Assembly: GCA_012295275.1 (NCBI GenBank)
Contig: CM022673.1
Coordinates: 26,546,761 to 26,610,760, forward strand
DNA from: Chrysomallon squamiferum
Lineage: Eukaryota; Mollusca; Gastropoda; Neomphalida; Peltospiridae
Direction of reading: 5' to 3'
DNA length: 64,000 nt
The position numbers were made by a program, and so were the translations under genes. A model generated the notes under the pieces. That model saw only the letters and a program-made list of their open reading frames with translations, did not search any database and was not told the DNA's origin. Position 1 is the stretch's first letter; every line of letters starts with the position of its first letter. Positions 3,001 to 60,791 of this stretch are shown here, one piece after another.

Positions 3001-6000
3001 TAAAAAACTTCTGAACTAACAAGCATGTTGTTAATTTTGCTGTTTGTTTCTACTAAATACAAAAATTGCATGTGTTGTATACATCATGTACGTATGATTG
3101 TGTAAGAGTCAATATTGACAGATATGAGACAAACTTGTACATATGCCTGTTTTTAATTTAGTTTGTTCAGTAAACTGAAGCAATTCTGTGCCATTTTCTG
3201 ATTGTTTTTGTATCTAAAACTTGTAAAATAATGTTCATTTAGTAATAAGGCTTTGAGCTTTATGAATCTTTGATTTAAATTTTTCAATCAAATTATCACA
3301 AGGGCTTGAAACAATTTGAAATAATCCTGTTTTGTGAATACAATATGTCTGCTTAATAATCTTTTAAGAAGTTCTCTTAATATTATCTTATTTTTCAGAA
3401 AGGTAGATACTTATACTGTGATGTACTTGTTCAGCATGTAAATTGTATACATGTACATTTACTGTAAATAAAACTAATTTATTATATTTCATTTTATTTT
3501 GACCTAATAACATTTTATTTGTAGTTAAATAGGTTAGATGTACTTGTATTAGTGTGCTTTTTAATTAATAGAATAATATTTTGATTATTTAAGATTATTT
3601 TTATATTATTTATATTTATTATTGTTGTTATTAGTTAATTTAAAGAATTTTGTTAAATATTTATTATATTTTTTATTACACACATTGAGTTTAATTTTCA
3701 TCACATTTTATTTCTTGATTTCTAAAAAGGATACAAACACAGAACACTGACTATTCACAATAATCCATTCACTGATACAACTTTAAATCACAGCACATTT
3801 TAATATTTAAATCATTTTATTAAACCACTTTATAAAACAGAGGACTCTACAAATGAATATTTTATCTTAAACCATAAATAAAAGTAAGGAATTATAATCT
3901 ACATATTATATTTCCATGTGCTATTAAAACTTTTTATTTTTCAGTATTAGTAAATAATGTTTGTGAATGTTAATGAGTAGGCGTGTTTGTTGTGTATTTG
4001 CAGCTCAACCCCTGTATTAGAAGATGAAGGTGTAAAGCAGATCACGTCACATAAATTAGCACCAGCACCTCCAACAATAACAGTGATTCAGAATGGGTAA
4101 AACAGTGAAATCTTTATTATCCTTACATTATGTATCATGTTTTATGATAAACACATCTCTCTCTCTATTCTCTTATTCTAGTAAAGTGGATTTATCTTGA
4201 TTGGGTAAATACATAGATAATGTTATGCACTTAAAAATAATTTTTTTTTTTTTGTTTTTTTGTGACATATTAAATTTATGATTATTTAATTAATTTTCAC
4301 TCTTAATATCTATCATTTATGCTTTTGTAATTTAAATCTGAACTATCTAACAACAATTATTAAAAACTCCAAAATCAGTGTTATATGATATATCAGAGTA
4401 CATGTTCTTTTCTGCATTATGTTTTGCTGTTTTCTTGTTAAACAGCTGCAGATTTAAATAAGTTAACCTTTGCATAAAAATGAAATATGTAGATTACCTT
4501 TGCATAAAAATGAAATATGTTAGAAATGCTTGTAAAAAAACCACAACAATTCAAAGCTCTGTGCAGTTCATAAAAAAAAAGAGGTGAAAATCAGTTTTGC
4601 TGTTTCTGCTACTGTGAAGTTAAAACATTCCCAGACGAGATTTGAAATGTTGTTTTCCAGAACCGTTGAGAGGAAACCACACAGTAGTAGCTACAGCAGT
4701 CAGCACAGCTACAGCTCCCAGCACAGCCACAACAGCGAGTCCTCTCACAACCGCACCCTCAGCCAGGGCAGCGACAACGGCGACAAGCGAAAACTCAGCC
4801 AGAGCAGCGACGTTTTCATCAACATCAACTCCGCCAAAGCTGCAGGTGTTCCACAGGTAAATGTCACTGATTACAACAGTTTTCAGTTTAATACTGTTTC
4901 CACACTAAACTCAGATGATAATATTATTGTTTCTCTTCTTTCTTTTTCTTTTTTTTTTTTGTTTTCTTTTTAGGACAAAATATTCTTTCTTCTTTTTTTA
5001 ATTTTTAATCTTTTTTCTTAAATTTTTAATATTCTAATTTTTTTTTCTTTCAGTTCTTATTGTTTTTTTAATAATTATTTGGATTTTCAAATGTTTCTAT
5101 AGAAAATTCAGATATTATATTATTTTTTATAATATGGTATTGTTAGACTAAAAGTTTTCATTTTTATTTTATTCTGCTTTGGGGCTGATCTCTTACGTTG
5201 TGCTGATTAAAACTGTAACCTGTTTGTGAAAAGCATTTTCAGTATTTAAAGATGACAGTTCAAGATTTTCTGGGTTTTTCTATTTGTCGCTTATTTTCCT
5301 GTCGCTTGTCTTCTGCTTTCATTTCTCATTTCTTTGTTCTTTTCCTTTCATTAATCCAGCTAGCTGAAAAGACTCAAAGTGAGAGGAGAGGTTCAGCTGT
5401 TAAAAATAAAACCCCTGTCCTAAAAAATGAAAAGAAAAATGTCAGTAAACATGAACCTGATTTGGTTAAGGTTCAGGAAGAAGGGGAGAACAGTTTAGAA
5501 GTAACTACAAAATTTCCTCAAAGTTTTTTAGTGAAGGGCTCTAAGAATGAAAAATTCCCACTTCCCCCACCTCCAGAACCTTCTGAAGAAGCAGCTGACC
5601 CTAGCTTGACCTTTCCAGATCCTCCCGATGACTTCGCAAACAGCACCAATCCATTTCTGAATTCTGACAAACAATCCACTAATCCCTTCGATTGTCCTGC
5701 AGAAAGCGACAGCTCCTCTTTGCTGAAGGGAAAAATGTCGAAACCTCAGCACAGCACGAATCCTTTTGAAACTGGATCAGAAACATCACGTGCAGCAGCA
5801 AATCGAACTGAAAGTAAATCGAAGCCTGCTGCACCCATCAGATCGACTTCGCTCTCTACCACAGACAGCGCTGGCCAGCAGCCTTCACTCTCAGGACAGA
5901 GTGAATCTGTTTCTCAGCTCAAACCAAGACCTGGTAACAAACCTGCTGGCAGGAGGGCAGGGTCCTCCTCCTCCTCCTCTTCATCCCCCCCACCTCGCCC

Positions 6001-6972
6001 ACCTAACAGCCCTGCCCTTGTTGGTCGACCTTTGTCCAGTGAAAGGCCAAAGTCTCCACAGTCTTCTTTTGGTGCTGGTCGAAAAATTCATTCGAAGAAA
6101 TCATCCCCTCCTCCACCTCCTCCTCCTCCTGCTCCTTCCACTGACAAACGTAACACCCCTACCAGCCCTCTGGCATCCCGGGAGAAGGTCGACGCCCACA
6201 ATGACAGTGTGCCTGGTGAAGGAACAGTGATAATTGTAAGTTTTCTCACAGTGCTCAGGTCCTGCACATGACTCAGTAAAAAAAAAAAACCCTTACAGCA
6301 TGAATATATATGCATGTTCATCCCTCTCGTATACAGCATCCCTTACATCCGTAATGTATTTATAACTAATGTAATTTCCTTTTGACTAATAAAAATATTA
6401 ATCTAATTGTTATCCTTTTTTCTTTTCTTTTTTTTTTTTTAATTTTCTGTGTTTGGACCTGAACAGTTGTTGCATGAGAAAATTTGCATTATGAACTAAC
6501 ATTTTATTATAACTAATTACATTTATTCCTAATGTATTTTTTTTATGTTTTATATGGTGTATATAGTTAAAATATTATTATTATTATTAATACTGCTATT
6601 ACTATTACTGTTATTGTTATTATTATTATTATTATTGCTATTACTATTTTTAGTTTTATTTTATTAATATTATCATTTATCATTATCATCATCATCATCA
6701 TCATCATCATTATTATTATTATTATTATAATTATTATTATTAAAAATACATTGACTCAAAACACAGTTAATGAACTTTGCAGTATTTCATCAATACTGGG
6801 CCCACTTAACTTCTGACCTACATGTGTTGTTATGATAAGTTAACAGATAAAATGAATACAGTTTTGTTTGTTTATCTGTAGAATATATGTTTAATAATGA
6901 GTTGGTAAATAGTAGCATATTTCAGAGGAAAGACTGCAACAATAGCATATATGGTTTAGTGTCTGTAAAATC

Positions 6973-16418: not shown

Positions 16419-16424
16419 TTTATT
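16419..16424 (-). terminator. Candidate poly(A) signal of the His-rich peptide gene
   Basis: TTTATT on the plus strand reads AATAAA on the minus strand, about 50 bases past the stop codon of the His/Cys-rich peptide gene. It is the nearest canonical hexamer downstream. Confidence 0.5.
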
Positions 16425-16475: not shown

Positions 16476-16706
16476 TTATCTGTCGCAGTGTTCTTCGTGA
16501 TGGTGATGGTGTTCATCGTGATGGTGATGATGATGTTCTTCATGATGATGATGGTGATGATGATGATGATGATGTTCCTCATGACAGTGTTCATGGTGAC
16601 AACATTTACAACATGCTTCACCCATGCCTATTAGAATCGCTGAAACTAAACAATGAATATTTTTTATTACGTAGATAAAATTTTCAAATGCTGTATTGAA
16701 TGTAAA

Positions 16707-16780
<74 letters not shown>

Positions 16781-17277
16781 AGGATATATCTATAAATACA
16801 GGGAAGTCAAAATAAAAAATAGTTTCATCATACAGTAATTTTTATAAAATACGCTAGTGAAATTTATATAAAAATGAATTAAATGAAATTTAATTTTTTT
16901 TTTGGATAATAAACGATAAAATAAAAATACAAATCTAAGCCTGCGTAAATGTTACCTTTTTGAAATTAAGTATTATAATTTTTTTTTTTTTTTTTTTTTT
17001 TATCTTGTTAAATATATAGATTTAAGAATTAAAAAAAATAAAATAAAATAAAATAAAATAAAATAAATAAAAGGTGTCGATTCAAGTTTACTCGTTCTCT
17101 ATTTTTATACTGTAACCGATTACGTATCCTAGCAACAGTGTCGTTCACCGTCTTGTTGTTAAATAATTTCACGTCACTAAATAGTTAGGACATATCTTAT
17201 CTTAATTTTGTTGGTATGGGCAATCAGAGAAACAAGGAAGGACAGAGATAAATAGATAGACAGACAGACAAGTAATC

Positions 17278-17321
<44 letters not shown>

Positions 17322-17414
17322 TTATAAAAAGATAAATATCGATATTCATTTAAAAAATAATGTTTAAAGTATTTACTTACATATCAGCGAAATAAAAATC
17401 TTCGTCATATTCAT
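16476..17414 (-). CDS. Secreted His/Cys-rich small peptide (two exons)
   Basis: Coding exons are 17414-17381 and 16639-16476, with the intron at 17380-16640. The donor is a perfect GTAAGT, the acceptor is TTTAGTTTCAG, and the split codon T|CG gives Ser. The product is 65 residues. Residues 1-20 (MNMTKIFISL, then ISILIGMGEA) form a typical signal peptide, with cleavage likely just before Cys21. The mature part starts CCKCCHHEHCHEE, followed by runs of 11, 6 and 5 histidines separated by EE or DE pairs, and ends EEHCDR. That is 27 His and 6 Cys in about 45 residues. The His runs use mixed CAT and CAC codons and acidic pairs punctuate them, so this is not a pure microsatellite. I infer a secreted Zn, Cu or Ni ligand or an extracellular matrix or antimicrobial peptide; I know no exact family. 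The overlapping 79-residue ORF rich in Ile and Thr is a frame shadow. A TATA box lies about 80 bases upstream of the ATG. Confidence 0.82.
16709..16777. repeat. (CT)n microsatellite in the His-rich peptide intron
   Basis: About 34 CT units on the plus strand, read as (GA)n in the minus-strand pre-mRNA, about 70 bases upstream of the acceptor. Confidence 0.95.
17285..17318. repeat. (GA)n microsatellite in the His-rich peptide intron
   Basis: About 17 GA units on the plus strand, read as (CT)n in the pre-mRNA, about 60 bases downstream of the donor. It is complementary to the tract at 16709-16777 of the same intron. Confidence 0.95.
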
Positions 17415-17490: not shown

Positions 17491-17501
17491 GTTTTTATAT
17501 A
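17491..17501 (-). promoter_or_regulatory. TATA box of the His-rich peptide gene
   Basis: The minus strand reads TATATAAAAAC, a strong TATA match, 77 bases upstream of the initiator ATG at 17414. A start site about 30 bases on would leave a 5'UTR of about 50 bases. Such a TATA promoter suits a highly expressed secreted-peptide gene. Confidence 0.6.
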
Positions 17502-20163: not shown

Positions 20164-21273
20164 TCACAGATATTCCAGCGGGTTGGAACGGATGCCTGTA
20201 CTGCTCCTTCCAGGGACGCGACACGATTTGCAAGCGAACATCTTCAAGAACCTGCGCCTGAAGTTCCTGGCACTCAGGAAGTACAGGTAGAAGTTGACCG
20301 CGTGGCTCATATCGCACAGCAGGTACGCGCACTGTTTGAAGAGCCGCTTCCAGCCGTCAGCCGGGGTCAAAGGTCGCACGACCCAGTAGGCGTCGAGAAT
20401 GGAGAAGACGCAGATGGGCAGGATGAGCACGACGAACATGATGGACGCCGTCAGGAGCATCGCTGTCACCTGCAGGTGGAACAGCTGGCTGCGCGTGCAG
20501 CCGCTGTTGTTCGTGAGGATGACGTGCGTCATCAGCGAGTGGTGCACGTCTCTGATGATGAGGACGTTGAAGACGAAGAGGAGCGTGCACGGCACGAACG
20601 CGTACACCGTGGAGTCGATCCAGTACCACACCATCTGCGTGAAGTTCTTGTACACCTTCAGCATCCCGCACATCATGCGGTCGTAGCGCTCGTAGTAGAT
20701 GTAGGACGTCATCCAGACGACGGGCAGGTAGATGGAGAAGAGAACGAAGGCCACGAAGGAGACGCTGAGGGTCGCTTTGCGCATGCGGCAGCGTTTTGAG
20801 GAGGAGCGAGACAGGGGGTAGTGGACAGCGAGGAATCGCTCCACGGCCAGGAACACGAGGATCCAGTTCGACATCGCAACGAGAAAGTTTCCCAGGAAGA
20901 TCAGCGTCTTGCAGCCTTCGGGGCCCAGGGCGACGCCTTTCAGCGACAGCTGATGATACAGCAGCTTGACCGTGATGGCGAGGTTGTCCGCAATGGCTAG
21001 CAACAGGACGTAAAACGACGGCGGACCCACGGCGGCCATTTTGATTGTCGTTATGATGGTGGCAAGGTTGCCCGGAAATCCCAGAGCAAACACGAACCAC
21101 AGGTAGTTTATATTTATGTAGTGTTCCACCGTCATCAGTCGGCGAAATTCCTCGTCGGCGAAGTACGTGTTGTTTACGAAGAACTCAAAATAGGTGTTGT
21201 TTGTCAGTTTCTCGTCCGTGGTGCTGTAACAGTCGAAGCAGAACGTTTTGTTTTGCAGTTTGTTGTGAAACAT
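20164..21273 (-). CDS. Intronless orphan class-A (rhodopsin-like) peptide-type GPCR
   Basis: A single open frame of 369 residues from the ATG at 21271-21273; the frame continues upstream through TTG but has no earlier ATG. The N-terminus carries three N-X-T glycosylation sites (NKT and NNT twice). Seven hydrophobic segments lie near residues 57-78, 85-107, 112-136, 158-180, 216-240, 266-289 and 316-335. Class-A landmarks: GN in TM1, LAIAD in TM2, Cys111 before TM3 and Cys202 in extracellular loop 2 (likely disulfide), ILP in TM6, a basic helix 8 (RNFRRRF) and a CKSC palmitoylation candidate. Two motifs deviate: ERF replaces DRY, and NFYLY replaces NPxxY. These features fit the expanded orphan neuropeptide-type receptors of molluscs and annelids; the ligand cannot be told. 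The gene is GC-rich against AT-rich flanks, and lack of introns fits a retroposed origin. Overlapping ORFs in other frames are shadows. Confidence 0.9.
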   Translation of the reverse strand: MFHNKLQNKTFCFDCYSTTDEKLTNNTYFEFFVNNTYFADEEFRRLMTVEHYININYLWFVFALGFPGNLATIITTIKMAAVGPPSFYVLLLAIADNLAITVKLLYHQLSLKGVALGPEGCKTLIFLGNFLVAMSNWILVFLAVERFLAVHYPLSRSSSKRCRMRKATLSVSFVAFVLFSIYLPVVWMTSYIYYERYDRMMCGMLKVYKNFTQMVWYWIDSTVYAFVPCTLLFVFNVLIIRDVHHSLMTHVILTNNSGCTRSQLFHLQVTAMLLTASIMFVVLILPICVFSILDAYWVVRPLTPADGWKRLFKQCAYLLCDMSHAVNFYLYFLSARNFRRRFLKMFACKSCRVPGRSSTGIRSNPLEYL

Positions 21274-22590
21274 TTTGAAGAAAGTTAAAAGCAACCGTCA
21301 CTCCTCACGAGGTTTTTACTTAAGATTTTTTTATCCTGAATGCGAGTGTTACAAGGCGTGTCATTAGTTGTGCACGTAATGAAAAGGTCGTGTTCGCGTT
21401 TTCTTCGGGAGATTCCGACTACAAACTGGAACCGAATGTTGCAGGCAGACGTTCCGCTGATTGGTGAGACTGCATCACCTCTGTTTCATTACGCTGCTGT
21501 TTTAACCACGACTTTGACGTAGACACGAAATGGTTCTGAATTCAGTTCGTCCTTTTATCTGTAAAAAAGGAGATAAGAAAAAGAAATGAAATCCAAACCT
21601 CTGAGAAATAGTAATTTTTATATCTATTTAAATGATAATAGTAGTAGTAGTAGCAGCAGTAATCATAATCATATCAATAATAATAATTAATACAAATATA
21701 TTCTCTTCGAATACTATGTTTAATTTATTTATGAAATCTATCGACCAATCTTTGTTAATAACAAATTTATATAGATATATATGTAACAACGTCAATAGTA
21801 GAGTAGTAATAACAATATCACCACCACCAACAACAACAATAATAATAATAACAATGAAATAAATTCCGTATTTTACACCAATACATTACTCAATTTGTTC
21901 AGGTTTATTTTATATTCTTAAAAAAAATAAAAACCAAAAAACCCCTCAAAAAACAAAAACAGAGAGAGTGAATATTTTATTGTTGTGTACTTTTATTTAA
22001 AAATTGGGATAAAAAACAAAAAAAAAAAATAAAAAATAAAAAATAAAATTGGTTGATGATATAAAAAATAACGATGATAGTGATGAAAAATAAATAAATA
22101 GATAAATAAAAACAAAAAAGTAATTTTTTTTTATTTGTTTGTTTTTTTTTTTTTTAAATTTCTATAGCCTATTAATGAACAGCGAAAAGAAAAGGGAGAT
22201 TACTCTTTAACAGAAACACGACAGTTTATATTAAGTGGAAAGATAACGTAAGTTTTAAATAAATTGGTTATTATTATTATTATTATTATTAACGCAGATG
22301 AAATGATGACACATCCTAAATTAACTTTATGAATGTTTTTGTTCGTTTTCAATTTTAATGACTGACACTTTTTGTTCGTTTTGATTCCTTCCGCGAAACT
22401 ATGACACTAGAGTCATATTTTAGCAATTATTTACAGCGGTGGATATTTTAATCTGTATTAGATATTTATAACGTCAACACGAGAATGTGTATCGCCTTTC
22501 TGTGTGCAATGAAATTAGTTTTATTATGAGACTGTAATAAAAGGTTTAGAGTCGTTTTACAAAGTCTCCAGTTTTATGACAAGTTTGGAA
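21274..22590. other. Upstream region of the GPCR and intergenic DNA
   Basis: The first 250 bases or so (to about 21550) are less AT-rich and probably hold the receptor's 5'UTR and promoter, though I see no clear TATA box. Beyond that are triplet tracts near 21640-21690 and 21830-21855, A/T-rich stretches and (ATT)n at 22269-22291. No gene seen. Confidence 0.55.
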
Positions 22591-25045: not shown

Positions 25046-25410
25046 TGTTTTGACGTTACAGTGACTTCACACTGTAGTCTTTTGAAGTTACAGTCACTTC
25101 AAGTTATAGTATTTTAACGTTACAGTCACTTCACGCTATATCCTTTTGTCATTACAGTCACTTCACGCAGTAGTCTTTTAACATTACAGTCACTTCACGC
25201 AGTAGTCTTTTAACATTACAGTCACTTCACGCAGTAGTCTTTTAACATTACAGTCTTCACGCAGTAGTCTTTTAACATTACAGTCACTTCACGCATTAGT
25301 TTTTTTTAACATTACAATAACGTCACTTTATAGTCTTTTAATAATACAGTCACTTCACGCATTTTTTTAACATTAGAATCACTTCACGTTAAAGTCCGTT
25401 CACGGTTTAG
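25046..25410. repeat. 32-bp minisatellite, about 11 copies
   Basis: The unit (TTACAGTCACTTCACGC, then AGTAGTCTTTTAACA) repeats with a 32-base period. TTACAG starts are at 25056, 25088, 25120, 25152, 25184, 25216 and 25248. After a 2-base-shorter copy, degraded copies follow at about 25278, 25312, 25344 and 25372. The central four or five copies are nearly identical and the edges are diverged, the usual sign of unequal exchange in the middle of an array. Confidence 0.93.
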
Positions 25411-29761: not shown

Positions 29762-29915
29762 AGAGCTGAACTAGAGAAATACAGGAAAGAAACCAACAGT
29801 CATAGAACAGCGAAAGACAGGAAGATGTGGAAACACCATACACAGGCTGTCGTTCTACAACGGGATAGTACGATCACACAGTGTTGATGATGATGATGTT
29901 GATGATGATGATGAC
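29762..29915 (+). mobile_element. Possible 3' end of a non-LTR retrotransposon
   Basis: A 41-codon open stretch (29762-29884, TGA at 29885-29887) reads RAELEKYRKETNSHR, then TAKDRKMWKHHTQAVV, then LQRDSTITQC, a basic tail like the C-termini of many LINE ORF2 proteins. It is followed at once by a (GATGAT)n-type tail to about 29915, and several LINE clades end in short tandem repeats. No reverse transcriptase core is present, so at most this is a 5'-truncated copy. Confidence 0.4.
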
Positions 29916-32900
29916 TGTAACGCTTATAAAAATGAGATAATATGAGTGTATTGCTGGAATCAGTGGCTTTTTGTTTGGTTGTTTTGTATAACTGTGTTTG
30001 TTGCGTTGTTATCTATACATGTGTAAATGTCCTTATGTGCATGCATATGCAGATATGTGCATCATTTCAGTTACAATTTGTTTTGATGTTTTCTTCACGG
30101 ATAAATAAATTATTATTCTGGAAGACGGTATAGTGGCTCCGTTGTTTTTATTTACTTTGTACATACATCAGTTAATTAGTAATACTCATTACAGTGATTT
30201 AAATTTAAAAAAAAAAAAATAAAAATAAAAAAATTAATTATTTATTCTTTTTTAAATAATGAAAAATAAAGCACCGCAACAAAAAAACAAGATTTACTTG
30301 TCACCTGATACCAAACAGAAGCCAATAATAATTAGACGAATTTGAACTTTACGCATACATCGTCTGGACGATTTGTCGCAGAAACTGTCAAATAAAGTCA
30401 GAAAGAACCGTACAAGTGAAGCCATTATTTCTTTAGGGCTTCCACTTTTAATGGAATAAAACGTAAACGAAAAGCACGTAAGCTAGATTTGTGTTTTTTT
30501 GTTGGAGCGGACTGGATGACTGGTTTTTGACGTTTCTGATTGGTGCTTTTAGTGCGCGGGTTAACCAGCGTCTTCCGTCGTCTGCTGATGATAATTATGC
30601 ACGTGGCACCAAGGAGCTGGATTGAGTAGCAGGCTTTATCGCTATTTCTGGCCGAAATATTTTTTTTTTTTTTTTTTTTTCTGAATTTAGATCTCATCTG
30701 AAAGTCACAATGATATAATTTTCTGAATGCTGGAATCGTTCATGAATAAGATTTTATTAGACAGGATTAATAATAATAATAAAATATATATATATATATA
30801 AATAAATAAGTGACCCAAAAGGAAAAATAGATGGGGAAAAGTATTAATAATTGATTATAAAAATCATGATAAAGATCCTGCAGTGTTTTTGTGAAATTTA
30901 TATTACTACATAACACTTATCTATTAATATCTAATTAAAAAAAAAAAAAAAAAAATAAAAATAAAAAATAAGGTGACCTAAAAATCGTTTTAAACGATAA
31001 TGAACCATAACAAAGTGACCGGTGACCTCCATTTGAATTTTTTAAATTTTACATTGTTTGTTGTTCAGTTCTTGTTAAAAATATTATTTAAACATGCATG
31101 ATTAGCGCTCGTAGGTTTATTATTAGTTTTTGTTTACTAAATTAAAATATTTTATAATACACACATTAACTGAAGTTAATTAACTGGACAGTAGTTTGGC
31201 TTTGTGTAACATTAACTCAAGATAAGATTTAATATATCAAAAACGTGTAATATACAAATTGGCATTAACAACAGCATATATTACGTCACACATTAGTTAC
31301 ATAAAAAATACGCAGATGATATTGAGATTTTAGAAACTGAGACTCTGTTTCTAATGTTAACCATCAGGATTCATCACAGGATAGGAAAACAAAAAACTAA
31401 AATATCACATTTTGATTACAGACTCACTATGGTGTCATATCTTTTTCGCTGAGTATATTTTACGTAACCGCTTCATATTTTGTTCGGCAATAACATTAAA
31501 GTCGAGATTTACACGACAATTTTAAGATTACTTACCTTAATCCAAGAAGAGTTATAACCGATAATCTAAACTTGATGGTTTCTAGCCATTTGTAGACGTA
31601 TTTAGAATTTGACAATTTCCTACCTCCATGGAGATTCTTTATTTCTTAATTATGTTGTCCTCGGCGTTCATCCGCGGGGTGAGCGGTAGCAGTATTGTCT
31701 AGCGATGTTAATTAACAGTGAAAGTCCCTCTAGAGAGGAGTCGGGGAAAGCATGCATGGCATTTAAGTCTAGTTAACACTAAGCAAGAGAAGAAGCGACG
31801 TTTTCAAACGTTACAGAATTGCCAAGCAGAACTTTGACCAGAACGCTAATTGAAAACAAACGCGAGCATTTCGTAAACACGTGATGGTGAGAATAGTCTC
31901 GTTATACGAGAACGTTTCAAAGCCGGTGGCGTGAAATTAACGAAATATTAATTAGCGGAATGGCAATTTTAAAATTTGAATTATGTTAACTTAAAAAGAA
32001 AACAACGAAAAAAAAAAAAAAAAAAACCCAACAAAACAACAATAACAGCAACAAAAAACATTCAGAAACTGTTCATTACTTTTTGAATATCTCATCGAAA
32101 CGACAGTATTAATCAAAACAAGCTGCGTGTGTGATATATATGTAATAATGTCGTCTGCTGTGGTGACTTACAGTGTATTAGTGACATGAGTTTACCATTC
32201 GTATTACTTCTGATACAAGCTTTCATTACCGTCCCTGTCAGTTCTGTTTTGCATTCGTGCTTCATTTTTTATATTATTTTTACGTTGTGGCATATTAAGG
32301 AGTATTTTGTAAGATATGGATATTTAATACAGAAGTAATTACTTGAGATTTCTTGTAAAACATATGGATGTTGTCTGTGATAGTTTGTCAATGTTAATCA
32401 AACGTGAAACAAAATACAGCTTGGATATAATTTTTATTTTTATTTATTTATTTATTTATTTTATTTATTTTATTATTATTTTATTTTATTATTATTATTA
32501 TTATTATTTTCTACTTCATTTTTTTTTTTTCTTATCCTAAATTAATGTTACGTAAAGCAAAAAGAAAGAAAAAAAAAAAAGAAAAATTAAAAAAAGCATG
32601 TTAATTAATATTTCAGTTTGTCTTCATTCTGAAACTTTTTATACTTACTACATTTGCGAAACTGTCTCTAATGGTGCAACAGGCCAATATTAATTATTAT
32701 TGTCCCAAAGGTACATTTATTTATCTCTGTATACATTCCAGCTCATAGAATAACTAATGGAATATTTTGTTTCGAAAGAGATAAAATTATTGCGAGGCAG
32801 ACTTCTGAACGGCGGTTTTCAGAATTGCAGAAATGCGGGCGCCATCATATTATAACATTCATGATGAAATTAGTTTCTTTATAAAGAATACACTGATAAA

Positions 32901-41443: not shown

Positions 41444-44400
41444 TAATAATAATAATGTTCTTGACAAAATAAATAAAATAAAATAAAATAAAATAAATAA
41501 AATAAAATTTTGACAAAAAAATAAATAAAATAAAATAAAATATAATAAATTAAATAATAATAAAATTAACATTTGCCAGCTAATAATGGATTTAAATAAT
41601 GTTATCATTAAAGTTTCACATCATTCAAAATAACCCGAGTTTCATGATAATTTGTCACGTTATATCTACACTTTCAGTACAATAACAACACGTGCACAAC
41701 GTGTTCCCAAACTAAAATTCTGTTGCACGTGCAAATAGTTACACTTAACAGACAACGAGGTCGCTAGCAGGGGTCTAAAAGATCTTTAAATATCTCTAAC
41801 AACGGTATGATTTTATTCTCTGTAGTCTTGTCAAATAACAATGATGATGATTATGATGATTAAGATGATAATGATTATGATTTTGATTATGATGCCGACG
41901 ATGATGATGATGATGATGATAATAATAATAATAAAAAAAATATTAATATGATTAATTGATTATTTTCGTTTTTAACGATATTAATACAAAAACAGTTGAA
42001 TAATAATAATAAAAAAACTAAATTTTTCTTCATTAAGTTGTACAACGTATTCGAATCGCTGAATCTGAATAAATCTTACTGACCTTGACCTTGTACTCAG
42101 ATCTCAAAAGTCGCTAACCTGTACTTTTCATCATCTGTATTTAGAATTTCCAAAAAAAAAAAAAACCACATTGCCGAACAAATGTTATTGTCATTTTCAA
42201 AACACTTTACCACTGATGTGATTTACAGAAACTTCTCACAAAAATAGAAATTCTCTTTTTCATGGAACAGTGTGTAAAAAGAAAAAAATAGACTGGAATT
42301 AGCATCTCATTAGTCTCATCCTGTGTAATAGAGAAAGGAAATGATTTCACTAGCAGAAGTATTAACAAATGTGTACTTTAAAGACACTGCTTCTGCTGTC
42401 TTTTTTTTTAATTGTTTTTTTAAACCCAGTTAACTATAACACTGACAATAATAAACCAGATTAAAGGATTTTGAATAAGCTACGTACAATTAAATATTAG
42501 AAACACCCTATACACACACCCGCACACACACACACACACGCACACACACCCACGTTAGAAAATAAGATTTTATAAATAAATATTATGTTCCACTTCCACA
42601 GATACCAGTCTATTTATCCGGTTTCCTGGAAGAAAGCTTTATAAAATTAAAATATAAAACGAACAATGAAAAATAAAGAACAAAGCAATATTTAAAGAAT
42701 ATAAATTAATACATTTCTAAAGCCAATTTTCTAGAAGACGGATAAATACTTTGATATCAGTAGGTAATTATGTCAAAGTTTAATAGAGGGATGAAATGAG
42801 ATTTAGTATTATAGTTTAACAACAAAGATTTCTTTTAAACTGATTTAAATGAATTTATTATAAAAGCCACGGTTATATATGATTTTATATGAACAGGAAA
42901 AAGAAATGTTAATAGAAATTAAATAAAATGGTAGCAAAAATCGACGAGCTTTAAATAGTTAAAAGGACAATAATATAACTAGACATATAACTGAAGGAGA
43001 ACAATACTTTACCTTTTTATTTTTTATACGAACTATAAACCTGAACCTAACACTATTAAAATAAACTTTTATTAGCGAAAAAATGATCGACAGGAAGGTT
43101 TTGATGGTTTCGCGTATTTCAGAGAAAGCGCAGACGACACAGAAAAGGAGATATCGTATTTTCTATACGCATTATTTGTTTTGTCAACACGTCTCAGGAT
43201 ATACGAGAAAAAAATGTCACGTACACGTATCCGATTTTAAGCAATGAAATTAGCAATAAAAACAGTCTGAAGTAATCACGTGTTTGGACGAGTTTTGACG
43301 AGTAGAAGGATCGGTCTCGGTCACGTGACAGCTAGCCTATTTCCATTTAAGGCACTGTTTATTTTATTTTTTAAATATATATATTAGTAGCAAGAAGATG
43401 ACTGGAGGAACCCTGTGATAGCTGTGTTGTTTTATGTTTGTTGTTTACACTGGGAATTAAAACAGTGAAAGTCGGTCAGTTAACTTTGTGGTCCTGACTG
43501 ACAGATTTTGTGAAGTTCTGTCGACATACGAAGCTTTGTGAAACATACTTCTTAAAATTATTTTATTCTGTTTTACATTTCTTGTCCAAAAAATATTCAA
43601 ATATTTTCCCCTGCTTTGAAAAATTACTAGCTTAATTAAATATTTATGTTTAATATGCAGTCCCATCCATAAAAAATACAACAAAATCCTTAACATCAAA
43701 GCAACGACGACAGCATGCATATACACACAACAATACTAAAACAACAACCACAACAACAACAACTAAAAAACTTCTCTCTGTCTGTTCATGAATTTTTTTT
43801 TTGCTGTTTTTATTAAGTCTTATGGCGCGGTTGCAGTGATTTCCGTTATTACAGTCAGTATTTGAGCTTGTTCTTTAAACTCTTTGATCAAATCGTATTT
43901 TAACGATTCTTTAATCGACGTCTTGGCTTTTATTATTTTTTATTTTTTTTATAGATATTTCCCCCCCCCCCCGTTTAAAGCTGGCAGTCATCACTGACTA
44001 TCACTTTGATACAGTTTCACTCGTAAACAAGTAGAAATATTACCGTTTGCAAAATGTCGAGATCAACGTGCGATTTGATTGATTTTGTGCCATCTATTCC
44101 ACTTAGTAATTCGTTTGAACTCTTCCAAAGTGGTCCTCTTTTTCTCTCGAGCGCTTCTAATGACAGCAAAGCGAAGGATCTTCAACTAAACAATAACCGC
44201 GACTTTCTCATTTTGGCTATGGAAAAATCATCGTGCAAGAGTGAATAAGTCGTTCGTAAAGTCAGCACATCTGTCATTTTCTTTTTTCTTAATCAGTATG
44301 TCTGTCGAGATTTTTAAAAAATATTTTTTTTTTTTTTTTTTTTTACGTTTTTTCCTGCACGGTCGAAGCCTCGGATAATTATGAAATATTAATGGATTTC

Positions 44401-48668: not shown

Positions 48669-51015
48669 TATACACACACTCACACACACACAAATACATC
48701 AACATTCCATACACATATTAAAAAAATTGCCAGTGTTTCTTAAATATTCCTCATATTTCATTTTTGTGGTAAATATACATATTTTTGTTGTTTCTGCCTT
48801 CAGAAAATCATAAACATTATTTATATAAAACTCACTTTTCTTAATTTTAAGTAATATGCAAACAGATATTTAAAAGAATTTGATTTACTTTCATTAATTT
48901 CAACATTCAAATGTAAATAAAAGCATAATTAGTTTATAAAAGAATTAGTAAAAACATTTTTGATTGCTAGACATAAAAAGTTCAAGTCTGTTTCACACAG
49001 ACAAGGAAATCACCCCCTCCAGTGTTTTAATAAATAATTTTAAAAAATTAAACAAGAAAAAGGTGATTCTAAAAATAGTACCGTAGCCAGTTGCCGTCCA
49101 ATATTTCCCATAGTCACACCTCCAGAGAAAAAGATACAAGGAAGCCAGGATCGCACAAAGAGGAAGTCTGGTTCAGTATATCTTTAATTAAAAAAAAAGT
49201 ATTAAATAACTATTTAAATATAAAATATTTAACTTAAAATTTTAAAAATTTTATAAATAAAAATTCAATAATTAGAATAATAATTAAAAAAAAGGGTTTA
49301 CCGATACATTTTTTTCTCACATCCACAGTAAAAGTAAAAAACTTCAACATTTTCTATGCATCATTCTTAAACTCGTAATAACAAAAATATACATTTTATA
49401 TACTATTCAACGACTTGCCAATATCGCAACAGTATTTATTTACTTACTAAATTTTTTTTTTTTTTAAATGATCTAACAAAACTGATGTTACCTATAAACT
49501 CCGTTGTAAACGAGAAGCTGGGTGACGAATGTTGCAAGCACGGCTATTCCCACTCCGAGGCCAAAGCCACTGCGAGACCGGTCAAACAGCCACCACAGGC
49601 CGATGGACATGGCCGCCAGGGACAGAGAGAGCTGCATGTTATTGGCAAAGTCTATTTTGGCACTGGCATGGTTGATTCCTACGAAAACGGCCACACATCG
49701 CATCACGCCCGACCACTCCCTCTTGTAGTAGTGAGACTCTCCCAGGGTGCGGTCCAGATAGGGGTACAACAAACCGATGATTGCTGTGACGAAGAAGAAA
49801 TAAAACCATAAACGCACGATGTAAACAAGAAATTATAATGTATCTCTGTAATGTTATGCCAGAGAAAAAAATACACTTAACAGTCCACTGTCAGTGAACT
49901 ATGGGAACTGAAAAATAAGTGATGTTTCTGACTTTCTGGAATTTTCTGTTGTTTCTGGAATTTTTAAATTTATTTTTAATCCAAAAATTAGATGAATTGT
50001 GTATATTTTCTTATTTTTATATAGCCGTTCTCCCACTTATACAACACAAACATGATGTTAATATTTCATCAGAACATGAACTCTACATGTAAATCACAGT
50101 GTGCTGTTTTTGTCGTGTACAGTATTCAGATGACAAATTAATTAGACAAACATTAAGCTTATCACTGTATGTAATTAAGACTTTTTCTTTATTATTTATG
50201 TAATGTGCAGTTTACTTAATTACATTTTCGTGTTATTAAAAGTGCTTTTAATACACATTTGTTACTACAAACATAAAAAGGAAAAAAAAAAAAATGAAAT
50301 AACAAGTTTATCTGTCATCTGTTGCAGAAAATGTTAATCTAGATGCTGTTACTTTTATTGCTAAACCATCTGACAACATACCACACACATGCTTATCTTA
50401 AAGTTTTCATTTTGAATAAATGAATAATGACCCTGGTTCTTGCAGAATCAGTTTTTTTTTTTTAATTTATGTTTCATAATAAAAATAAAAGTATCACTGA
50501 ACATTCATCATTATTCAAATGTAGGAAATTGCAACATCACTCAATTATTTCAATAACAAAAATGTGCTTTAGTCTTTTTTTTTATCTTTTTTTTTTTTTA
50601 TGTTTGATAATAATAATAATAATAAGAGGTATCACAGAAGATTTATTATTATTCTCATATAGGAAACTGATACATCACCACACAATTCTTTGATTAAAAA
50701 AAAATATAAAAATTTAAAGAAATAAATATGCTTGGGTCTTTTAGACCTAGAGTGAACCCTGGAGGATCAAAAATAATTTTAAAAATACTTAAATATCAAA
50801 AATAAATCAGGAAATGTAAATTTGTAAAACAAACCTGATGCTGTGCCACAGCTGGGGGCCACCCACCATGCTGATGAAAAAAGACTGGCAAGAACTTCAG
50901 GTGGGAACACCGTAACTTGTCTCTGTACTTGCAAAAGATTTAAAACTAGAGCAAAGAAAACACCCACAGTGAACAACACAACCCCTCGCATCACCAGAAA
51001 AGACGACGATGCCAT
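48447..51015 (-). CDS. INSIG: Insulin-induced gene protein (INSIG), ER sterol regulator
   Basis: Four coding exons join in phase: 51015-50835, 49783-49492, 49181-49082 and 48482-48447, giving 202 residues (human INSIG2 has 225). INSIG is a six-helix ER membrane protein that binds oxysterol, retains SCAP-SREBP in the ER, and recruits HMG-CoA reductase and SREBP regulators for degradation. Family signatures are plain: [18 protein letters not shown] in helix 1, [86 protein letters not shown], and [20 protein letters not shown] then QLAT. The last exon encodes only [11 protein letters not shown], matching the short C-terminal exon of vertebrate INSIG. The start is the ATG at 51013-51015 ([13 protein letters not shown]); the frame runs upstream to a TTG only. 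Exon 1 is preceded by an acceptor (TTTCTAG) paired with a 5'UTR exon ending at 52042 (ACAG/GTACGT). The neighbour CCDC93 is divergent. Confidence 0.96.
49784..50834. other. INSIG intron 1 (coding)
   Basis: AT-rich intron with poly-T and (AAT)n near 50609-50625; no other feature seen. Confidence 0.8.
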
Positions 51016-60457: not shown

Positions 60458-60791
60458 TTTATTTATTTATTAATTAATTTATTTATTCATTTTTATTTAT
60501 TTATTTATTAATTTATTTATTTATTCATTTTTTTTTTTTATTTATTTATTTATTTATTTATTTATTATTTTTTAGGATGCTTACAAACCACAAAGAAGAT
60601 ATCGCAGACAGGATGTTGAGAAGCTGAAAGATGAAGAAACGAGAGTGCAGTCGACACTGTTAGAATATGGCAGGTCTGTTCTTATTTTTTATATTTTTTT
60701 ATGTTGCAGGTGTTGTAATGGAGCTCTTTGCCATGAAAGTGTCAAGTAGACAGAATGAAATATTCATTCATAATGTGTTTATTTTTTTTTT

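Follow-up and report, generated by a model that had tools for sequence, protein, structure and literature searches.

A candidate orphan gene for a secreted, histidine- and cysteine-rich metal-binding peptide in a gastropod genome

The 64 kb stretch of DNA analysed here (the window) probably carries, on its minus strand, a small gastropod gene coding for an orphan protein; the product would be a secreted metal-binding peptide and most likely a buffer or store for metal in the extracellular space or the secretory lumen. Our best reading of the product is an orphan secreted metal chelator, predicted to combine a CC-x-CC cluster with polyhistidine. What is new is the orphan gene; the kind to which it belongs, small His/Cys-rich metal-binding peptides, is known. 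The sequence, the open frame, the codon pattern and the lack of annotated relatives are observations. The gene anatomy and composition given in the initial annotation are confirmed, and its interpretation is partly supported.

Exon 1 (17381..17414, minus strand) is 34 nt long. Read from 17414 to 17381 it begins ATGAATATGACG... and codes for MNMTKIFISLI plus the first base of codon 12, the start of a segment judged signal-peptide-like by its hydrophobicity; a second in-frame ATG lies two codons downstream of the first. The putative intron (16640..17380, minus strand; 741 bases, GTAAGT...TTTCAG, phase 1) contains (GA)n and other simple repeats, and its acceptor is TTGTTTAGTTTCAG. Exon 2 (16476..16639, minus strand) supplies the end of the signal-peptide-like segment, CCKCC, HHEHCH, three acidic-His units, EEHCDR and a TAA stop; the Cys cluster and three acid-punctuated His runs described at the outset can be read directly in its translation. 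The exons join in phase at 17381/16639 through GTAAGT, as had been proposed, and the spliced product is open for 65 residues (MNMTKIFISLISILIGMGEA followed by CCKCCHHEHCHEEHHHHHHHHHHHEEHHHHHHDEHHHHHEEHCDR); with the intron retained, the frame reaches a stop after 13 residues. GC content is 41% in exon 2 and 17% and 26% in its 300-base flanks.

Residues 1-20 hold a basic residue, then a hydrophobic core and G-x-A ahead of the presumed cut, an arrangement typical of signal peptides, and on hydrophobicity the N-terminus is signal-peptide-like. With cleavage after A20, a site picked by eye, the presumed mature part has 45 residues (27 H, 6 C, 8 E, 2 D, 1 K and 1 R), and the earlier count of 27 His and 6 Cys in about 45 residues is reproduced. 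The longest ATG open reading frame across exon 2 is a 70-aa Ile/Thr-rich frame, whereas the His frame from the exon 2 ATG (ATAGGCATGG, at 16625) gives 49 aa, in keeping with the remark that a shadow frame hides the gene. Gene finders could easily miss a gene with a first coding exon of 34 bases and a longer false frame over the second.

How much weight can the surrounding signals bear? A TATA-box-like element, TATATAAA, does lie upstream (17494..17501, minus strand), with TATATAAAAA starting at 17501, 87 bases 5' of the ATG, and a possible polyadenylation signal, AATAAA (16419..16424, minus strand), starts at 16424, 52 bases beyond the stop. With 26 of the former and 321 of the latter on the minus strand of 64 kb at 29% GC, both motifs are weak support, and the TATA box that had been put forward counts for little. 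The donor had been called perfect: the GTAAGT hexamer is there, but exon 1 ends in T where G is usual, and the score is an ordinary 1.41 bits on an approximate matrix. In the window, 289 of 6757 GT sites, counting this one, equal or exceed that score, so by itself the donor is unremarkable.

We also listed, on both strands, every stop-free exon of 10-91 bases that starts at an ATG, joins exon 2 in phase and scores at least 1.4 bits at its donor, a cut-off chosen post hoc (an earlier one of 2 bits left out the donor of exon 1). Three of the 65 rows obtained across the window equal or exceed this exon on donor and hydrophobicity, namely its own two ATGs and one unrelated minus-strand site; under a looser hydrophobicity cut (2.5), 10 of the 65 pass, this exon supplying two. 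In the 10 kb upstream, with a donor of at least 0 and the acceptor at 16640, there are six rows, two of which are this exon, and each of the other four falls below it on both donor and hydrophobicity. These figures bear on a reading in which a larger gene has exon 2 as its last, His-rich exon, or exon 2 is translated unspliced from 16625 as a 49-residue cytosolic peptide, in either case with a product that has no signal peptide. The in-frame ATG within exon 2 would allow it, but exon 1 is the best on donor plus hydrophobicity among the 10-91-base ATG exons of this upstream set, and we consider such a gene structure improbable.

A CAT repeat yields His in one frame without selection, so the His runs alone prove nothing. 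The main challenge to a coding gene is a non-coding CAT/ATG microsatellite with interruptions, lying beside a chance splice-like ATG exon and producing no peptide. The setting invites it: simple repeats abound in the window (150 TRF rows, counting those that overlap), it holds three further CAT arrays, 289 of its 6757 GT sites match or exceed the donor, and homologue searches of proteins came back empty. From the first to the last His, however, the 37 codons comprise 18 CAT, 9 CAC, 8 GAA/GAG, 1 GAT and 1 TGT, so that the one-step departures from CAT are nine silent changes and one non-silent change (Asp), unlike those of decayed arrays. The three control CAT-rich arrays of the same window (6654-6740, 29860-29943 and 41820-41948) were selected for at least 6 CAT in 16 codons. 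Counted between the outermost His codons of each core, their one-step changes are 1 silent (CAC) and 14 non-silent, the latter leading to Asn, Tyr, Arg, Leu and Gln. The array at 41820-41948 (minus strand), with Asn, Tyr, Arg, Leu and Gln codons, is a useful example of decay. Codons at least two steps from CAT were excluded from the comparison, nine in the candidate gene (8 Glu, 1 Cys) and five in the controls; that the two-step codons here are Glu and a single Cys is itself a point against a decaying repeat. Silent and non-silent changes differ between the His frame and the controls at Fisher p 4.6e-5, a value that overstates the case because the events are not independent: copying of a CACCAT unit leaves fewer independent silent events, and several of the nine CAC codons may be a few events multiplied by repeat expansion. 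The same silent changes replace Met with Val in an antisense 44-residue frame and Ile with Thr in the 70-residue shadow frame, so it is the His frame that looks protected and under selection. The Cys cluster, the signal-peptide-like start and the stop also all share one frame. We judge a chance repeat to be unlikely, though it deserves to be taken seriously, and the protein reading is, in our judgement, favoured over it.

The candidate peptide has no annotated relative that we could find. Residues 1-40 gave zero candidates sharing three words among 5.8 billion proteins, and the 63 candidates for the whole peptide all fell short of E 10, in a search that includes annotated mollusc proteins, depends on shared five-residue words and is blunted by low complexity. 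A Pfam scan to E 1 returned a sole match, PF22251 (a vacuolar protease transmembrane domain), at E 0.38 and 10.6 bits against a cut-off of 32.3; NCBIfam gave six matches (E 0.1 to 2.1), several of them to metal transporters and all far below cut-offs. The PDB gave six distinct sequences with a best E of 0.065, and both alignments shown rest on the His stretch. Pattern searches yielded 8 matches in viral contigs and 392 in bacterial and archaeal contigs, with 0 confirmed in either; since neither collection is eukaryotic, a lack of matches there is little guide to snails, and low complexity blunts the prokaryote search as well. The opinion that no named family has this layout agrees with the empty protein, Pfam, NCBIfam, viral and prokaryote searches, a set that holds no eukaryotic genome DNA. 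Small unannotated genes would be absent from protein sets, and 'orphan' accordingly means that no annotated relative was found. Searches of the window for paralogues (tblastn and C/H-rich scans) returned, among the matches listed, the gene itself, repeat arrays and CC-x-CC matches elsewhere that we judge to be chance. One of the latter (60675-60737, plus strand) is a 21-residue stretch weakly resembling the peptide around its CC-x-CC. No gastropod peptide of this kind appears among the literature titles and abstract openings listed.

By composition rather than alignment, the nearest parallel is Hpn, the nickel-sequestration protein of Helicobacter, a bacterial, intracellular protein without a signal peptide or CC-x-CC. 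Both proteins are tiny, Hpn with about half its residues as His in runs and with Cys pairs, the snail peptide with 27 His and CCKCC; the snail product differs in its signal-peptide-like start and its CC-x-CC. The Hpn study describes 60 residues with 28 His and two Cys pairs, in vitro binding of Ni, Zn, Co, Cu and Bi and, for the protein expressed in E. coli, a reported lack of Ni or Zn binding (PMC4671568), so composition does not settle binding in cells. The same authors suspected that Hpn is frequently missed in annotation, being small and biased in composition, with longer other-frame open reading frames annotated over it in several genomes (PMC4671568); the shadow frame could mask the snail gene in the same way.

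An animal parallel is Ts-PCHTP of Trichinella, a poly-cysteine, histidine-tailed metalloprotein. Its 18-residue signal peptide is described as lying on exon 1, and the protein as having a CKCCC motif, a tail of His and bound Fe, Ni and Zn; it is a protein of about 48 kDa with two large Cys domains and 6.1% His that is not excreted from the worm (PMC2954182). Its poly-cysteine domains span 163 and 172 residues in that account, whereas the snail mature part has 45 residues and 6 Cys, and domains of this type are absent from it.

CC-x-CC is a metallothionein-type thiolate motif, found in the vertebrate alpha domain as in the snail peptide. Metallothioneins are cytosolic, with many more Cys and little His; the snail product begins with a segment that is signal-peptide-like on hydrophobicity, and no Pfam family model passed its cut-off that would place it among them. 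The metal-response element, a common but not universal feature of metallothionein promoters, has no exact match (TGCRCNC) between 14006 and 20492, so this region lends no support to metallothionein-like induction.

Other His-rich proteins are more distant. The viper poly-His-poly-Gly peptides have a poly-Gly partner and lack a Cys cluster, histidine-rich glycoprotein is a large multidomain plasma protein, and microplusin and hebraein of ticks have a helical fold, a modest His content and no CC-x-CC. The viper peptides are presented as natural polyhistidine and proposed matrix metalloproteinase inhibitors (PMC12108757), and histidine-rich glycoprotein as an extracellular His-rich zinc binder (PMC5372734). 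The likeness of the tick peptides lies in being His-containing defence peptides, of which microplusin is described as chelating copper (PMC5198042).

If such a gene is real, we infer that it is transcribed, spliced and conserved, with transcription beginning shortly 3' of the TATA-like element and removal of the 741-base intron leaving a 65-residue precursor. The precursor would enter the secretory pathway and be cleaved near A20, and the 45-residue mature peptide would probably be disordered. If the peptide is made, 27 imidazoles and 6 thiols in 45 residues should coordinate transition metals, and binding of these metals is a sound inference from that composition. The peptide may bind several metal ions of soft or borderline character (Cu, Zn, Ni and possibly Fe): the cysteines of CCKCC, HCH and HC would form a thiolate-imidazole cluster, and the His runs would act as a sponge that responds to pH. 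The calculated charge (textbook pKa values, thiols free) is about +18 at pH 5, +5.6 at pH 6 and -8 at pH 7.5, and given this shift the peptide is expected to loosen metal and turn cationic in acid. Its most likely role would be metal buffering or storage, extracellular or in the secretory lumen, which we favour over antimicrobial metal withholding and over mineral chemistry.

The first of these other roles would make the same peptide a metal-withholding or acid-activated antimicrobial comparable to microplusin and hebraein, differing from our preferred explanation in role only. It is small, probably secreted and His-rich, and its calculated charge is strongly positive below pH 6. A review reports that copper chelation by microplusin is thought to starve microbes of copper, and that acid pH raises the activity of hebraein, whose His cluster is important against some targets and not against S. 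aureus (PMC5198042). The snail peptide is, however, acidic at neutral pH by calculation, and CC-x-CC would suggest a metal thiolate more than three spaced disulfides. A defence role is in our view quite unlikely.

The genomic neighbourhood bears on the host. The window is microsatellite-rich, with a GC content of 28.8%; the genome average reported for Gigantopelta is 37.22% (PMC7895826). A rhodopsin-type GPCR lies in a single open frame at 20164-21297 (minus strand), 2.7 kb from the peptide gene, and is about 70% identical to a Gigantopelta aegis protein and to protein P0001, and 57% identical to a Haliotis cracherodii protein over 84% of its length. In a tree of 15 chosen rows (the window sequence and 14 of 40 matches), it groups beside Gigantopelta and P0001 with 99/99 support, and the Haliotis protein comes next. 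This places the host among gastropods allied to Neomphalida, and both the 70% identity and the GC value of Gigantopelta suggest a different species. Elsewhere in the window are an INSIG gene exon (49488-49832, minus strand; Pfam E 1.7e-28), a 350-residue stop-to-stop open reading frame (5219-6271, plus strand) that is Pro/Ser-rich, has three NPF motifs and no Pfam match, and may perhaps, as a guess, be an endocytic adaptor exon, and a tandem repeat with a 32-base unit and 10.8 copies (25048-25388). A weak match to PF13973 (E 0.0017) falls under its cut-off, and neither RNA families at the gathering threshold nor tRNAs were found in the window.

Might it instead be a matrix or mineralisation peptide of the mantle, radula or operculum, bringing metal into a hard part? 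This too differs from the preferred explanation in role only. The GPCR tree allies the host with vent snails, among which the scaly-foot snail is described as mineralising iron sulfide (PMC7142155), and imidazole-metal coordination is discussed, with mussel byssus as a model, in PMC6477608. Nothing within the window links the gene to a mineralising tissue, though, and the word 'histidine' is absent from the main text of the scaly-foot genome paper (PMC7142155). We give this role a small chance.

Metal buffering or storage remains the favoured role. More speculatively, the gene could be that of a lineage-restricted secreted metallopeptide that arose from a CAT microsatellite in a deep-branching gastropod and unites a metallothionein-like CC-x-CC with an Hpn-like His sponge, acting in extracellular metal detoxification or in delivery of metal to hard parts or symbionts; we hold this fuller scenario as a tentative possibility. 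If real, the gene would be an orphan giving rise to a secreted animal peptide whose mature part is 60% histidine. Such peptides are simple test pieces for the birth of metal-binding genes from trinucleotide repeats and, if the host is a vent snail, this one would have a bearing on life in metal-rich water.
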